Assembly: GCA_013538805.1 (NCBI GenBank)
Contig: JABXGR010000002.1
Location: forward strand, 124,001 to 188,000
DNA from: Candidatus Nitrosocaldus schleperae
GTDB taxonomy: Archaea > Thermoproteota > Nitrososphaeria > Nitrososphaerales > Nitrosocaldaceae
Reading direction: 5' to 3'
Length of the DNA: 64,000 nucleotides
The position numbers and the translations under genes are program-made. Within the stretch, counting starts at the first letter, position 1; every line of letters starts with the position of its first letter. The notes beneath the pieces are model-generated. The model was not told the DNA's origin and searched no databases. It saw nothing but the letters and a program-made list of their open reading frames with translations. Positions 31,141 to 38,993 of the stretch are shown in pieces.

Positions 31141-32014
31141 GTAGTGATGATCAAAGCATATTTTACACTCAATATCTCATAGCCTAATAGATGAGATATG
31201 AAGATCATGGTTGTAATACTATAGCCTATAGTATAGTAACGTATAAGTGCTTATAGAGGAGGATAGAGAAGCATCTAATCTTTTTTATACATCTTGTGCA
31301 AGAACAAAGTGATGAACTTGCTATAGTATCTCATCCAGCATCAGAACACTTAAGAGATGTATAGCAAGGTAGATTATGATATAATGGAGCATGTACTTGA
31401 ATCTTTCATAAAAGTATAGATGAGTTTAGAGATGAGGAGGCATCATCATACATAATGGGCTATTTCATGATGCTGTATTCAACTAGTGAGAAGAGAGGAT
31501 GCGATATGAGGTTCTAGGCTACAGTTATTCTAATATGCTTCATACAGAATGAGTATACTTAGCCAAGACAAGATGATGTATGTATGGATTTATGCATGTA
31601 TGTATATCACTCAGGGAAGTGTACCTCTCCAGATCAGATACAGGGAAGGTAGGAACTCTTACTCTTGTATTGAAGAGCACTAATACAGGAGGAGTAAGGA
31701 AAGAGGAGTACTTGCATTTGCAGACTAGCTTATATGAAGTACTTCCAAGTGTACATATGGATATCTGATAATACGATGCGATGGAATAGTGCGCATCTGT
31801 TGAAGAGGCAGAGGAGATAGGCAAGGATGTAGATGGGAGCAGGTGAGGTTTCCAACATGGCAGTTATACTATACATAACTTGAATAAACGCTGGCAGTAT
31901 AACATATACAACTAACTAGCATGCAATATCTCTACATCTATTGATTAAATTAAATTAACATGATTAGCAAATAGTGCTTACACCTTTGCATAAATAATCT
32001 TCTCTAAAAGCATA
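31141..32014. other. 875-base gap without an intact gene
   Basis: No frame on either strand looks like a conserved gene. The longest candidate (31580-31768 plus, 62 codons) is opposed by an equal one on the minus strand. Short frame segments with ordinary codon composition (for example DEFRDEEASSYIMGYFMM near 31420-31470) are broken by stops, which could mean a decayed gene. AT-rich, so a structured RNA of a thermophile is unlikely. The right end (31950-32014) should carry the promoter of the coiled-coil operon (AAATTAAATTAAC near 31947). Confidence 0.5.
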
Positions 32015-33223
32015 GTGATGACAAGTGAGGTTTACAGGAGAATAGAGGCAGCAGGTATATACGGTGTGAGAAGGACAGAGCTAAGAAAAGAGTTTGGTGA
32101 AGATGTTGATAAGCATGTTGAAGAGTTAATCTCATCTGGTCTTATCTTCTCTGACAAGAAGAGTGGAGCAATAACATACTGGACAAGGGATAACTACATC
32201 AAGTATGTTGTGGATAATGATCCAAAGTTCAAGTTGATTCAGGTTATGATTAACTCTATGAGCAATGGTAATAGAGATGAAGAGTGTAAAGGGATGCATG
32301 ATGCACTTGAGGAGAGGATGGTGAATACGATGCATAACACTATAGATGAAAGGATTAGAGATCTAAATAGGTATGTAGATGAGCATATCTCCTTGATCAA
32401 GAACGATTATTCTAACATAAACAACCACATTATGCAAGAGATAGCAAGTATTAAAGAGGAGTTAAACAATAAACTATCCCTACTCAACACAATTATAGAG
32501 GAGAGGGTATCATCAGCAAACAACGATCTTAATCTAAGGTTAGAGAGTGTAAAGAATGAGTTTAATACTTCAACTAGCAGGTTGGAGGAGAAGATCAACT
32601 CCATCATAACGGATGTGGAGAGAAGGATTTCAAGCATGGATGTTACTCATGAGATTCAAGATATCAGGAGTGTTATGAATGAGAATATCTCATCTATAAG
32701 AGAGGAGATGGATAAGATGTTGAATAACATTCATCTAGAGATAGAGAGTAGGATCTCCGCATTGAAGGATGATCTATCATCTAGGATAATAAGGATAGAT
32801 GAGAGTATACATGATGAACTTACAAGGATAAAGGTTGAGATAGGTGAGAGGATCTCTTCTCTAAGTGATGAGATCAAGGCTATAGGTAGTATGTTGGAGG
32901 AGGTTAAGGTTGTAACAAATGGCAATGGTCATACTAATGGAAATGGTAAAACTAACAATAATGCTAGAGAGCATATAACGCTAGAGCAGTTCAGGATAGA
33001 CTTTGATAGGATGCTTGCTGAGGCATCATCATCCATAGGCTGGGTTGAGTTGGTAAGCATAAGGGAGAGGATGTGCAGGAAGTATGATATCACAGCACAT
33101 GAGTTCTACTCACTTGTAGCACAACTGTTAGAACGATTCAGCAACAGATATGAACTCTCATCTGGAGGGCAGGAGGGTATAGTGATCAGGGGATTAGTGC
33201 ATGGATTCGTTAGGAGGATATAG
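32015..33223 (+). CDS. Winged-helix / long coiled-coil / winged-helix protein
   Basis: 402 residues. Residues 1-62 are a winged-helix-like domain (GIYGVRRTELRKEFGEDVDKHVEELISSGLI). Residues about 85-300 are an almost uninterrupted coiled coil with a recurring I-x2-I/L heptad pattern and phrases such as EISSLSDEIKAIGS-type repeats. A Gly/Asn/Thr linker (303-320) leads to a C-terminal helical domain (LEQFRIDFDRMLAEASS... YELSSGGQEGIVIRGLVHGF) that looks like a second winged helix. Two bases separate it from the AAA+ ATPase gene. Likely a DNA-binding, filamentous or bridging partner of that ATPase; no known family recognised. Confidence 0.8.
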   Translation: MMTSEVYRRIEAAGIYGVRRTELRKEFGEDVDKHVEELISSGLIFSDKKSGAITYWTRDNYIKYVVDNDPKFKLIQVMINSMSNGNRDEECKGMHDALEERMVNTMHNTIDERIRDLNRYVDEHISLIKNDYSNINNHIMQEIASIKEELNNKLSLLNTIIEERVSSANNDLNLRLESVKNEFNTSTSRLEEKINSIITDVERRISSMDVTHEIQDIRSVMNENISSIREEMDKMLNNIHLEIESRISALKDDLSSRIIRIDESIHDELTRIKVEIGERISSLSDEIKAIGSMLEEVKVVTNGNGHTNGNGKTNNNAREHITLEQFRIDFDRMLAEASSSIGWVELVSIRERMCRKYDITAHEFYSLVAQLLERFSNRYELSSGGQEGIVIRGLVHGFVRRI

Positions 33224-33225
33224 GC

Positions 33226-34851
33226 ATGAGTATGAGCCTCTACCCTTATGGATTGGAGCAGAACCCATTCCCTAGCAGTCCAACACCAACCATACATGAT
33301 GCTAGAGTGCTAGGAGGCAAGAGGCATAGAGAGGCTAGGGATGCTATAGTTGATTGCATAGATGATCTCTACTCAAAGTTGAAGGCAAAGGATGGTAACT
33401 ACGATGCAAGAGACTTTAGGTTGGTTACTGTAGTACAGGATATAGGCTCTGGCAAGACACACCTTGCATTGCATATAAAGAGTACAAGAGAGGATGTGAT
33501 ATGCTCCTATGTTGATCTCAGCACGATCTCACCAAAGAGCATGCATGGTCTCTTCTCCAGCATACTGAAAGGGTTTGATTCAGAGTATGTAGAGCATCTA
33601 AGATCGATTATAGTTAATGAGTTGAAGAGAAGTGCAATTGAAGGAAACAAGCATGCAAGGAAGTTCTTCAGACCATCGCTCTTCTTCAGTAACATAGAGA
33701 GGCTTGCTGATGAGGTTATGAAGGGTAAGAGGGAGCCAGACTTTAGGTACCTGAATAATGCACTTGCTGATATGGGTATGGATATTGATGAGTATGAACT
33801 CCTTGTAATTAAGAAGATAGTAGAGAAGAGGTTCGCAGATGTATCTGATCTAAGTAGCCTTGAGGATATGCTATCGTTCCTTGCTTCCCTAGCAAGGATA
33901 AACCAGAGGTTCTTAAGCAAGATTACAATGATAGAGATAGATGAGTTCGATTCCAACATGGACTCCATAGAATTTGTTAAAGCTATAATAAATGCACACC
34001 TCCCATCAACAATAGTGCTCCTTATAACAACACCATCCATCTATGACTCGATAAGGAGCATAAGCCCATCTCTCTTCGATAGACTTGAGAAGGCTAACTA
34101 CAAGATAGACCTTGTAGGCTCAAGCACATTTGATGAGATTGCTGATATAGCATTAGAGTATATAAGGAAGGATGTGAAGGATCTTAGGTTCAGCATGCAG
34201 GAGAGTGATATAACAAGCAAGATAAGGGTTGTGTACGATGAGTTCATAGAGTTCAGGAATATAAGATCGCTCCTAAACATACTCTACCATGCAATGGAGA
34301 TAGCAGCAAGGAGGAATGATAAGGTGCTAAGCGAGGAGGCTATAGAGGAGGCTATAAAGCAGGCATATCCAGGGCTTAGGGTGAGGGGTAGCCTTATGAA
34401 CGTTCCTATAGCAGAGTACATGAGGATAAGGAGGGAGCATTCAAGCATTGATCTACTTGAGCATGGTGTTAAGCAGGCAGTGAAGAACCTCCTGGCACTT
34501 ATACAGGAGCATGGCAAGATATCAAGGGTTGAGTACGATACCGCAATAAACAGTATAAGTGCTGATGCCGTATACATGGATGCAAATATGAGGAGGGTTG
34601 GTGTAATGGTAACCCTTGGCAAGGACTATGCAAGCATGAAGGATCTGTATCATGAAGGTATAAGTGTTGATAAACTGCTAGTTATCAACAACATAGGCAA
34701 CAATAGCAGCAATGGAGCAGTATTTGTAAGTATTGATAAGTATAAGATAGCAGATCTAATCTACTTCAGCCAGAAGTACAGTAAGAAAGAAATAACTGAT
34801 ATAGATGTAGAGAAGGCATTGTTACTTGCAAGATCGATAACACTGTATTGA
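33226..34851 (+). CDS. AAA+ ATPase partner of the coiled-coil protein
   Basis: 541 residues. The N-terminus (YPYGLEQNPFPSSPTPT, 6-22) resembles the lead-in of ExeA/Orc-like ATPases. Walker A is GSGKT (74-78), Walker B IEIDEFD (236-242) and sensor 1 LLITTPS (265-271); a helical lid follows (to about 385). Between Walker A and B there is an unusually long helical insertion. The C-terminal 150 residues are unassigned alpha/beta. It is sandwiched between the coiled-coil gene (2-base gap) and a HAD gene (4-base overlap), so the three act together. Orc1/Cdc6-like function is an alternative. Confidence 0.85.
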   Translation: MSMSLYPYGLEQNPFPSSPTPTIHDARVLGGKRHREARDAIVDCIDDLYSKLKAKDGNYDARDFRLVTVVQDIGSGKTHLALHIKSTREDVICSYVDLSTISPKSMHGLFSSILKGFDSEYVEHLRSIIVNELKRSAIEGNKHARKFFRPSLFFSNIERLADEVMKGKREPDFRYLNNALADMGMDIDEYELLVIKKIVEKRFADVSDLSSLEDMLSFLASLARINQRFLSKITMIEIDEFDSNMDSIEFVKAIINAHLPSTIVLLITTPSIYDSIRSISPSLFDRLEKANYKIDLVGSSTFDEIADIALEYIRKDVKDLRFSMQESDITSKIRVVYDEFIEFRNIRSLLNILYHAMEIAARRNDKVLSEEAIEEAIKQAYPGLRVRGSLMNVPIAEYMRIRREHSSIDLLEHGVKQAVKNLLALIQEHGKISRVEYDTAINSISADAVYMDANMRRVGVMVTLGKDYASMKDLYHEGISVDKLLVINNIGNNSSNGAVFVSIDKYKIADLIYFSQKYSKKEITDIDVEKALLLARSITLY

Positions 34852-35540
34852 AGGTTGTATCCTTAGATCTAGACGGTACAATCTTCAAGAAGGGGTTGGA
34901 TGATATCTTCTGGAATAGATTGATACCAGAGTTGGTTGCTAGAGAGAAGGGCATGAGCATGGATGAGGCTGTAAGATGGGTTATTAAAGAGTATGACTCT
35001 ATAGGCCCAAATGATATAAGATGGTATATACCAGAGTACTGGTTCTCTAGATTTGGACTTGCTGATACCTTGCTTGATCACTTACTTAACGTAATGGAAG
35101 AGCAATACTATGCCAATGGCATGTATGATGATGTGCCTTTACTTGCAGAGATGAGCAAGAGGTATAAAGTGATCATATCAACATGCAACCCACCAGCAAT
35201 GGCAAAGAAGAAACTCTCCATAATAAAGAGAAGCAATGTTAGTGTAGATGCACTATTCTCCTCCATATCATACAATATGGTCAAGAGCAAAGAGTTCTAT
35301 AGCATAATCTGTAAGGAGATGAATGTTAATGCACAGAGTATATTGCATGTAGGCGATGATCCTATACAGGATCTTAAGGTACCAAGATCTATTGGTATGC
35401 AAGCAATACTTATGGATAGAAGGTGTGAAGGGAATCATAATGGCGAAGTTCTAATTAATAAAAGTATTAGCAACATGGATGATGGTGTAGAATGTATAGT
35501 CCGCTCCATCAAGGAACTCATTGATATGATTATGCAATAG
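34848..35540 (+). CDS. HAD-superfamily phosphatase
   Basis: 230 residues. DLDGT (7-11) supplies nucleophile and acid/base Asp, STC is motif II, a Lys before the last loop motif III, and HVGDDPIQDL motif IV. A helical cap lies between about 15 and 95. Starts with TTG inside the end of the ATPase frame (TTGA overlap); this start places DLDGT exactly where the family has it. Substrate unknown; co-transcription with the ATPase may mean phosphoprotein or nucleotide turnover. Confidence 0.88.
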   Translation: MKVVSLDLDGTIFKKGLDDIFWNRLIPELVAREKGMSMDEAVRWVIKEYDSIGPNDIRWYIPEYWFSRFGLADTLLDHLLNVMEEQYYANGMYDDVPLLAEMSKRYKVIISTCNPPAMAKKKLSIIKRSNVSVDALFSSISYNMVKSKEFYSIICKEMNVNAQSILHVGDDPIQDLKVPRSIGMQAILMDRRCEGNHNGEVLINKSISNMDDGVECIVRSIKELIDMIMQ

Positions 35541-35593
35541 TAGTAGGTTGTTAATGATGGATGAGTTGATGAATGAGGAGGGAGTGATATGCT

Positions 35594-35767
35594 ATGAACC
35601 CTTTGCTTGCATTGCCTGGTTATATAACATTGCTTATAGCAGGTCTGATAATAGTTGGTATAGGCTTTCTTATCGATGAGTCTGAGATAGTGTTAAGGTT
35701 CATCATTGGCTTTATAGGTCTAGGGTTTATAGCAGTTGCAATACTTGCCATAGTAGTTGTAAGATGA
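35594..35767 (+). CDS. Small two-helix membrane protein
   Basis: 57 residues, two hydrophobic helices separated by a short acidic/basic turn (LIDESEIVLRF). GGAGGGA lies about 9 bases before the ATG. It follows the HAD gene by 53 bases on the same strand and may belong to the same transcript. Unknown function. Confidence 0.6.
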   Translation: MNPLLALPGYITLLIAGLIIVGIGFLIDESEIVLRFIIGFIGLGFIAVAILAIVVVR

Positions 35768-37125: not shown

Positions 37126-37275
37126 TGCCGGGGGCGGGATTCGAGCCCGCGACCTCCAGATTATGAGTCTTGCCCCTCTTGTGGAGGTCTGGCGCTCTAA
37201 CCAGGCTAAGCTCTCAGGCTTACTCCTCTTCTCTCCTCTTTTCTTCTCTTCTCTTCTACTCTTCAGTACCCCGGC
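37126..37275 (-). tRNA. Elongator tRNA-Met (CAT) with two non-canonical introns
   Basis: Minus strand. Acceptor GCCGGGG/CCCCGGC, discriminator A, no encoded CCA; T-arm GCGGG/CCCGC; D-arm GCT...AGC; anticodon stem CCAGA/TCTGG with loop CTCATAA. To reach this cloverleaf about 55 bases must be removed between positions 8/9 and 10 (about 37212-37266, almost pure purine) and 20 bases within the 5' side of the anticodon stem (37168-37187 or, given the repeated GA, 37170-37189, i.e. position 31/32 or 29/30). The anticodon loop itself has no canonical intron. Mature length 75 bases. Elongator rather than Ile2 or initiator by its acceptor and CCAGACTCATAATCTGG stem-loop. Confidence 0.85.
37212..37266 (-). 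other. Purine-rich intron of tRNA-Met
   Basis: The presumed D-arm intron is about 55 bases and nearly homopurine (GAAGAGAAGAGAAG type repeats) on the tRNA strand. Such tracts favour triplex formation in DNA; pyrimidine-rich sequence is also present on the plus strand beyond the other end of the tRNA (37070-37110). Confidence 0.6.
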
Positions 37276-37385: not shown

Positions 37386-38993
37386 TCAATCTTTGCCATA
37401 CGCCTTTACTATAGCATCCCATCTAGCATTGCTACGCTTCACCCACTGGAACTTCCTTTGTAGTGACGCTGTGTATATGCTAGTCCAATCTATCCCAACG
37501 TACTTGCACCATGCATAGAATAGCCTAGGATCTATGTAGTTCCTTAGCGAGGTTGCTAGATTATAGTCCTTGCACTGCTTTGCAAGTTCTATCTGTAATT
37601 TCAACTTCTCTATCCTCTCCTTCAACCTTTCTTCCTGCTTCTTGGTCTTCACCTCCTTGCTCATCAACTCCTTAAGCCTCTCCTCCTTCTTCCTCAAAGA
37701 CTCTTCAAAGTTCTTTGGTATTGCTCTCTTATGGTTGCATGTTATTGCTGCCTGAAGGTTTGCCATCTTTGCATGGTATACCTTGATGTAATCACCATGC
37801 CCATCGATCTTACCATCAACGCTCAGCAGGTAATCCTTAACTACATCTGTAGCAAGGTATGTTCTGAATGCCTTTGCTGTTAACCCATCCATTATGCTAC
37901 TCAAGAACCTGTTTACATGCCTTGATGTTATCCCAGCAAATATCTCCTCCCCTTCCTTCTTGTTTGCTACAAACTCCTCGAGGTTCTTGTATGCTATCTC
38001 ATCCATAGCATCCTCCACACTTATGCTCTTCTGCCATCTCACAGAGTCCTTGCCTAGAAAGTCAAACTCTATGCTCTTACCATTACCATTACCATTGTTA
38101 TTGAACCTGATATGCTCAACCCTTAGAGTAGTTGCACCAACTGTATCTGCCTCATCAGCATCCTTCTCATCCCCTACCCTCATAGCCAACTTGTAGATGA
38201 GGTAGCATACAGTTGCAACCTTCCTCCTCTTCTCATCACTAGCCTTCATCTCCTTCTCTATCCTTCCTACAACCTTCTCTATCCTCTTTGCAAGCATCAT
38301 TGCAGTATCGTACTTTGCCTTATCCCTCTCCTGCCTTATCCTTGAAGAGTCTGCTAGCCATACATACTTCTCCTTGCCTGTCAACTTGTCTATCCACTTT
38401 GCAAGCCATATGGAGTCATGATCATGCACTATAGCCTTCCACTCTGCTTCTGGTACTGGTGCATCCTCACCAAGGTTAAGGATGATATCACTAGCATAAA
38501 CCCTTGGCTTCCATCTTCCCCTTAATGGGTGCTCACCTCTACCCATGAATATGCCTGGTGGTTCTACCATCCAGTTGGCTACCTCATACCTCTCCCCATC
38601 GACTATAGCATAACCATATATGGACTTCAACTGCTCCCTAAGCCTCTTCCTCTCACTTGCTAGCCTCTTCTTAGTCTCCTTATCCATAGTGCTCTTCATC
38701 TCCTTCTCCCTATCAACATACGCATACACCTCGCTGAAGTCTATATCCTCTATTCTTGCATCTCTATACTGCTCAGGGAAGAGTTTGAGGAAATCGTTAA
38801 GGAAGTTGAGTAGGAATACAGGATCCTTCACATATTGAGTATCCTTCTTCTTTGCAAATGCATATGCCATCTCCTCCTGCTCTGGTGTAAGCCTTATCAT
38901 CTCGCCCTTTATCCTTATGCTGAGCCCTTTAGGCTCATAGGGAGGAGGTAGTGCTACACCATTATGTTGTAGTTGCCTCCACTTCATCCCCAA
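37386..38993 (-). CDS. top1: Eukaryote-type DNA topoisomerase IB
   Basis: 535 residues, closely following eukaryotic Top1 core, linker and C-terminal domains. Early block IFMGRGEHPLRGRWKPR, the catalytic tyrosine in NYIDPR (Tyr486) and the following AWCKYVG are diagnostic; the linker coiled coil is at about 405-460. TopoIB of this type is a marker of Thaumarchaeota among archaea. A short Asn/Gly run (NNNGNGNGKS) comes from triplet repeats at 38079-38103. Monocistronic. Confidence 0.97.
   Translation of the reverse strand: MGMKWRQLQHNGVALPPPYEPKGLSIRIKGEMIRLTPEQEEMAYAFAKKKDTQYVKDPVFLLNFLNDFLKLFPEQYRDARIEDIDFSEVYAYVDREKEMKSTMDKETKKRLASERKRLREQLKSIYGYAIVDGERYEVANWMVEPPGIFMGRGEHPLRGRWKPRVYASDIILNLGEDAPVPEAEWKAIVHDHDSIWLAKWIDKLTGKEKYVWLADSSRIRQERDKAKYDTAMMLAKRIEKVVGRIEKEMKASDEKRRKVATVCYLIYKLAMRVGDEKDADEADTVGATTLRVEHIRFNNNGNGNGKSIEFDFLGKDSVRWQKSISVEDAMDEIAYKNLEEFVANKKEGEEIFAGITSRHVNRFLSSIMDGLTAKAFRTYLATDVVKDYLLSVDGKIDGHGDYIKVYHAKMANLQAAITCNHKRAIPKNFEESLRKKEERLKELMSKEVKTKKQEERLKERIEKLKLQIELAKQCKDYNLATSLRNYIDPRLFYAWCKYVGIDWTSIYTASLQRKFQWVKRSNARWDAIVKAYGKD

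Follow-up and report, generated by a model that had tools for sequence, protein, structure and literature searches.

Among the closest described systems, the ATPase BrxC of the bacteriophage exclusion (BREX) defence system carries winged-helix modules fused on the ATPase chain (PMC12839542). A winged-helix replication factor, WhiP, is present in Sulfolobus (PMC4010727), and Cran1, a Sulfolobales OLD-family ATPase related to defence nucleases, works in the archaeal cell cycle (PMC12796447). Here we describe a pair of genes from Candidatus Nitrosocaldus schleperae (source genome 1.45 Mb), which encode a tandem winged-helix protein (gene 1) and an AAA+ ATPase (gene 2). They lie in a 64,000-nucleotide stretch (the window), at the head of four open reading frames (ORFs) of 402, 541, 230 and 57 codons, all on the + strand and with intergenic gaps of +2, -4 and +53. 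A first-pass annotation, made from the sequence alone, had read the first three as an operon of ‘bridge + motor + phosphatase’ with a shared function. The operon (32015-35540) and the +2 and -4 gaps were reproduced, but the genuine unit is genes 1 and 2, and the phosphatase falls outside it. The features of the pair are as follows.

32015..33223, + strand: gene 1, tandem winged-helix protein, 402 aa; in 114/114 distinct relatives followed by the AAA+ gene.
32018..32239, + strand: N-terminal winged helix, residues ~2-75, from the AlphaFold2 (AF2) model of a short orthologue (predicted local distance difference test, pLDDT, ~94 there).
32276..32920, + strand: coiled coil, residues 88-302; no proline, period 3.6-3.7; this length is Nitrosocaldus-specific.
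32966..33220, + strand: C-terminal winged helix, residues 318-402, the hallmark domain (SIGW...YELSSGGQEGI..RGL.HGFVR) and best-conserved part.
33226..34851, + strand: gene 2, AAA+ ATPase, 541 aa, with N-terminal motif YPYGLxxNPFPSSPTP (AF2; AAA_22 below cut-off; Foldseek BrxC, ORC, Cdc6).
33436..33459, + strand: Walker A, QDIGSGKT, residues 71-78; G74, G76, K77 and T78 invariant in 43 sequences.
33928..33945, + strand: Walker B, residues 235-240; D239 and E240 invariant, including in the phylum-wide alignment.
34081..34083, + strand: R286, candidate arginine finger just before strand 5; invariant in the 43-sequence alignment, position from AF2.
34264..34266, + strand: R347, candidate sensor-2 arginine in the third lid helix; invariant in the 43-sequence and phylum-wide alignments.
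34447..34848, + strand: PD-(D/E)XK-like domain, residues 408-541, alpha-beta-beta-beta-alpha-beta-beta-alpha (AF2); catalytic DxK replaced by MxT.

The conserved synteny of the first two genes, which the first-pass annotation had set as a check, was borne out. All 114 distinct winged-helix genes have a related AAA+ ATPase gene next to them, mostly at -29 to +47 bp and nearly all within ~50 bp; one junction is a longer overlap. Some of these loci were reached via an ATPase query, which biases the count, and 25 came via winged-helix queries or regions chosen by them; the tallies over 400 genomes and the follow-up of extended winged-helix profile matches were obtained independently of the ATPase. 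When 400 genomes of the class were searched by profile, the ATPase was found in 127, the winged-helix gene in 111 and both in 110, and in the single winged-helix genome without the ATPase the locus is interrupted by a contig end. In nearly all cases the two genes abut or overlap. The ammonia-oxidising relatives include Nitrososphaera, Nitrosocosmicus, Nitrosotalea, Nitrosotenuis and Nitrosopumilus metagenome-assembled genomes. Among the matches, the closest named relative of the source genome is Candidatus Nitrosothermus koennekii. A phylum-wide search that used the ATPase profile first and an extended winged-helix profile second gave relatives in six further Thermoproteota families (f29, f30, f33, f42, f45 and f50), of which we take f33 to be Pyrobaculum and Thermoproteus, f42 the Sulfolobaceae and f45 Caldivirga and Vulcanisaeta. 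Profiles of the ammonia-oxidiser and Thermocladiaceae proteins match at 97.7% for both the winged-helix protein (E 2e-12) and the ATPase (E 1.5e-12). No relatives were found by tblastn against plasmids and phages or in viral scans with a family profile and a Sulfolobaceae ATPase.

In the ammonia oxidisers the pair is nearly always single-copy, with a family-wide context and a vertical pattern, while Sulfolobaceae genomes contain up to three copies. Over 11 Sulfolobaceae pairs the distance matrices of the two proteins correlate with r = 0.90, which falls to 0.25-0.49 when partners are swapped within the genome; cognate pairing is therefore separated from shared species history. The flanking genes vary by family, with msrB, ferredoxin and glycosyltransferase genes in one group and a HAD gene in the Nitrosocaldaceae. 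Neither Pfam nor NCBIfam nor PADLOC has a family that covers the pair, and no description of it was found in the openly accessible literature. That the two genes are kept together points to an undescribed DNA-handling machine, a tightly linked unit with paralogous cognate pairs that has been retained in soil ammonia oxidisers as well as in hot-spring Thermoproteales and Sulfolobales. Several loci depart from this layout. ATPases without a winged-helix partner (L049, L093 and L100, Methylarchaceae-like; L172-L174, genus g37) have intact Walker motifs in the sequences read; a second, divergent ATPase copy (35% identity) at L048:7995-9713 (-) has no adjoining winged-helix gene; and in family f40 (L183 and L187) two weakly related tandem AAA genes, with a ~277-aa gene upstream, may represent another family.

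The translation of gene 1 could begin at GTG 32015, although the ATG one codon further (32018) is the likelier start. The coil is helical (0 Pro and 4 Gly in 216 residues) and its hydrophobic periodicity is strong (peak 3.68 versus a maximum of 2.37 in 1000 shuffles). In the AF2 model of a short orthologue (mean pLDDT 81) a winged-helix-like unit is located on either side of a single helix, in agreement with the DNA-binding-like domain at each end of ~215 residues of coil that had been annotated. Fold matches of the winged helices include RNA polymerase III winged-helix subunits, TFIIIC and the MarR and ArsR regulators, with ScpB among the weak ones, and the N-terminal winged helix weakly matches the B-block TFIIIC/Mnd1 helix-turn-helix. 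The C-terminal winged helix is common to the Thermoproteaceae, Thermocladiaceae and Sulfolobaceae relatives. Within the genus, identity is 51-84% in the coil versus 91-98% in the C-terminal winged helix, making the coil the fastest-evolving part of the protein. Other ammonia oxidisers have linkers of a few to ~40 residues and Nitrosothermus one of ~475, a range that speaks against a coiled-coil bridge as the core of the system. The coil of the Nitrosothermus protein (L037:6252-8132) includes repeats that are almost identical (SLSNENSSITNMLSSLTNRIDTLTKD), which suggests a recent internal duplication. A different long coiled-coil protein (c18; L041:5405-6811, -) is found near the pair in many Nitrosopumilaceae-type genomes.

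The AF2 model of gene 2 (pLDDT 88) places GSGKT, IEIDEFD and LLITTPS at the expected AAA+ positions and has a helical insertion after strand 2 (residues about 106-230) and a four-helix lid, so the AAA+ ATPase with a long helical insertion stands as first described. The closest solved folds in Foldseek are of BREX BrxC (9zll_B, E 6.9e-6; 9zdx_C, E 2.5e-4), alongside ORC and Cdc6, with TnsC and MuB lower. Walker A and B, a helical insert after strand 2, an arginine before strand 5 and a C-terminal helical bundle are features of the ORC/Cdc6-STAND type, and they are similar to those given for the ORC/Cdc6 clade (PMC12839542). Among the Pfam models, AAA_22 and Cdc6_lid (12.7 bits) are both below cut-off. 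Sequence searches of the PDB with the gene 2 protein and five family profiles gave chance or generic P-loop matches only, and a viral fold search gave only generic AAA proteins.

The C-terminal part of gene 2 (residues 408-541) has the PD-(D/E)XK fold topology (alpha-beta-beta-beta-alpha-beta; AF2). A profile search of the PDB gave no match and the assignment is based on the topology and on the motif in relatives; two family members match Mrr_cat (best E 0.0028). In the window ATPase the catalytic D and K positions are M and T, such that D...(D/E)xK is absent, and the true motif is present in 0/74 ammonia-oxidiser-type ATPases (two regular-expression matches fall elsewhere in the protein). An intact D...DxK is found in four Sulfolobaceae copies (PDIYF...GDIK and similar) and in families f29 and f50 (VDVYW...LDVK); the Methylarchaceae ATPases have D...NxK, and those of the Thermoproteaceae and Thermocladiaceae (Caldivirga-type) are without the domain. 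An active PD-(D/E)XK nuclease was probably part of the ancestral ATPase. As the domain is degenerate or absent in several lineages, the shared role of the pair must be independent of any cutting by it.

The genes adjoining the pair offer a clue to its role. Four Caldivirga-type genomes carry the pair immediately 5' of GINS (PF05916; 27.7 bits against a cut-off of 22.3) and MCM (337.7 bits), all in a single operon, and in the Thermoproteaceae a divergent endonuclease III gene adjoins it. In Crenarchaea, GINS and MCM are already known to adjoin (PMC2643942); their combination with the pair was not found described in the openly accessible literature. These two links, each limited to one family or genus, suggest genome maintenance, and the operon provides a concrete replication hypothesis. 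Of the roles proposed in the first-pass annotation, replication thereby gains one item of support, defence is weakened by the vertical, fixed inheritance in ammonia oxidisers, and nothing in the data favours chromosome organisation.

We tentatively favour, at a little under an even chance, an AAA+ machine of ORC/Cdc6 type, old in the Thermoproteota, with two subunits that act on DNA in genome maintenance. An ATPase of ORC/Cdc6-STAND type would oligomerise via its arginine finger, sensor-2 arginine and four-helix lid and use ATP to change its grip on DNA. The tandem winged-helix protein would be its dedicated DNA-contacting adaptor, with two winged helices joined by a freely varying linker. In the ammonia oxidisers the PD-(D/E)XK-like domain, without catalytic residues, may only bind DNA or a partner. 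The machine would most likely work in genome maintenance, close to or at the replication fork, where it might load proteins on DNA or clear them from it. Several observations weigh against this explanation. A Methylarchaceae-like family and some of genus g37 keep the ATPase without the winged-helix gene, which implies that the two subunits do not strictly depend on each other, and many marine Nitrosopumilaceae-type genomes have neither gene, so that the pair is not essential to ammonia oxidisers. The GINS-MCM linkage is confined to one genus, other Thermocladiaceae carrying the pair elsewhere; the Foldseek matches of gene 2 are distant (template modelling score about 0.26-0.36 on the query); and winged helices can also bind protein or RNA. 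A narrower proposal, that the Thermoproteota possess in this pair a second, undescribed Cdc6/Cdt1-like system, with an ORC-type ATPase and a tandem winged-helix partner acting on MCM-GINS and derived from an ancestral ATPase-nuclease, appears improbable.

The similarity to BrxC could instead reflect a defence or conflict module, in which an ATPase-nuclease with a winged-helix sensor attacks foreign DNA and the inactive copies are sensors or remnants. The AAA fold of gene 2 is closest to that of BrxC, whose own clade is ORC/Cdc6-like (PMC12839542), one relative weakly matches BrxD and mad8 (PADLOC), and among the Sulfolobaceae copies with an intact PD-(D/E)XK motif one is beside an IS607-like resolvase/TnpB unit and another near a transposase. 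At the former (L230:3396-5247, -) the resolvase and TnpB-like (Cas12f1-like TNB) genes directly adjoin the pair. Set against this are the single-copy, vertically patterned inheritance in ammonia oxidisers, the loss of the active site in all ammonia oxidisers read and the absence of other recognised defence genes beside the pair or of relatives in phage, plasmid and viral records. PADLOC gave no match for the window ATPase or its ammonia-oxidiser orthologues, and for gene 1 only coil-driven low scores. We regard a defence role as unlikely, though the likeliest of the alternatives. An ATP-driven transcription regulator, in which the winged-helix protein sits on promoters and the STAND/ORC-like ATPase acts as a switch, is rather unlikely; the fold matches of the winged helices and the layout, small two-gene operons being common among regulators, would suit it, but neither a sensor domain nor a conserved target gene adjoins the pair, and the PD-(D/E)XK domain and GINS-MCM linkage would be left unexplained.

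The archaeal STAND ATPases of the COG1672/SSO1545 type (PF01637) also combine AAA, winged-helix and PD-(D/E)XK domains, which counts in favour of the pair being a distant branch of that class with the winged helix split off. Sulfolobaceae members reach PF01637 at 25.9 and 19.7 bits, below the cut-off of 33.2; there is, however, no match for the window ATPase or in the ammonia-oxidiser table, and 0 SSO1545-type entries are among the Foldseek top 50, making such a descent quite improbable. Least probable of all, and by our estimate very unlikely, is the originally proposed bridge-like coiled-coil protein with motor and phosphatase in chromosome organisation. All Nitrosocaldaceae seen, and one sister family, do have the three genes side by side, and the winged helix-coil-winged helix layout recalls kleisin/ScpB parts. 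The coil, however, is short or absent elsewhere, the ATPase is AAA+ and not SMC, and the third gene is not kept with the pair. Gene 3 is a HAD-family protein, as annotated (PF00702, 30.2 bits, cut-off 26.4), which is beside the pair only in the Nitrosocaldaceae and one genome of family f2. It was rejected as a component of the unit because HAD homologues occur in families without the pair and are missing from most genomes with it; the phosphatase is a local operon partner and not a subunit. A 140-aa gene (c2), 3' of the pair in other ammonia oxidisers, was likewise rejected as a third component, being present in the pair-less Nitrosopumilaceae-type genomes listed and absent from Nitrosocaldus. 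The remaining features of the operon are listed below; the two-helix membrane peptide was found where it had been annotated, as the 57-codon ORF at +53.

34848..35540, + strand: gene 3, HAD-family hydrolase, 230 aa (PF00702); adjoins the pair in Nitrosocaldaceae and one sister family only.
35594..35767, + strand: two-helix membrane peptide, 57 aa; same position in several Nitrosocaldus genomes, outside the unit.

Around the operon, the spacer 5' of gene 1 (31141-32014) is 874 bp versus ~220 bp at the related locus L032, and it contains an ORF (c37; 31540-31824, -) with a counterpart at locus L033. A 94-base tRNA (37126-37219, -) identified by Rfam and missed by ARAGORN is possibly an intron-bearing archaeal tRNA. 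The protein encoded at 37386-38993 (-) resembles, by eye, a type IB DNA topoisomerase, a gene typical of Thaumarchaeota, and a homologue is present in the same area of the related locus L035.

Compared with known systems, gene 2 is closest in solved fold to BrxC/BrxD, sharing an AAA+ domain with a lid bundle. The pair is distinct from BREX, however, as it lacks a PglZ, BrxX or BrxL partner, its winged helices are on a separate gene and its ATPase has a C-terminal PD-(D/E)XK-like domain; no BrxC/BrxD match over the cut-off was obtained for the window ATPase (PADLOC) and the neighbouring genes are unrelated. Gene 2 resembles Orc1/Cdc6 in its AAA+ fold, lid and sensor-2 pattern (R347; Foldseek 7jgr and 5zr1), but in place of the C-terminal winged helix on the chain it carries the PD-(D/E)XK-like domain. 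It was rejected as an Orc1/Cdc6 since TIGR02928 misses it and the true orc1/cdc6, at 397 bits, is on another contig of its own genome. Every genome tested has its own Orc1/Cdc6, which disposes of the objection, raised in advance by the first-pass annotation, that the ATPase might belong to that family. The same annotation saw no fit to a standard SMC, Cdv, ParA or restriction module, which agrees with the AAA+ fold and the lack of a specific family match in Pfam, NCBIfam or PADLOC. The pair is similar to SMC-ScpA/B and the Muk condensins in having winged helices joined by a linker, but there is no ABC-type head with hinge, gene 2 having an AAA+ fold (AF2), and the long linker of the pair is dispensable. 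With Cdt1 and Sulfolobus WhiP it shares winged helices, and the Caldivirga-type GINS-MCM linkage parallels Cdc6-Cdt1-MCM, by analogy only. Sulfolobus is genetically tractable, so the role of the pair can be tested directly. Cran1 provides a precedent, although it is of the OLD family and not AAA+, with no winged-helix partner described; the repeated inactivation or loss of the nuclease in the pair suggests a comparable shift from cutting DNA to handling it.

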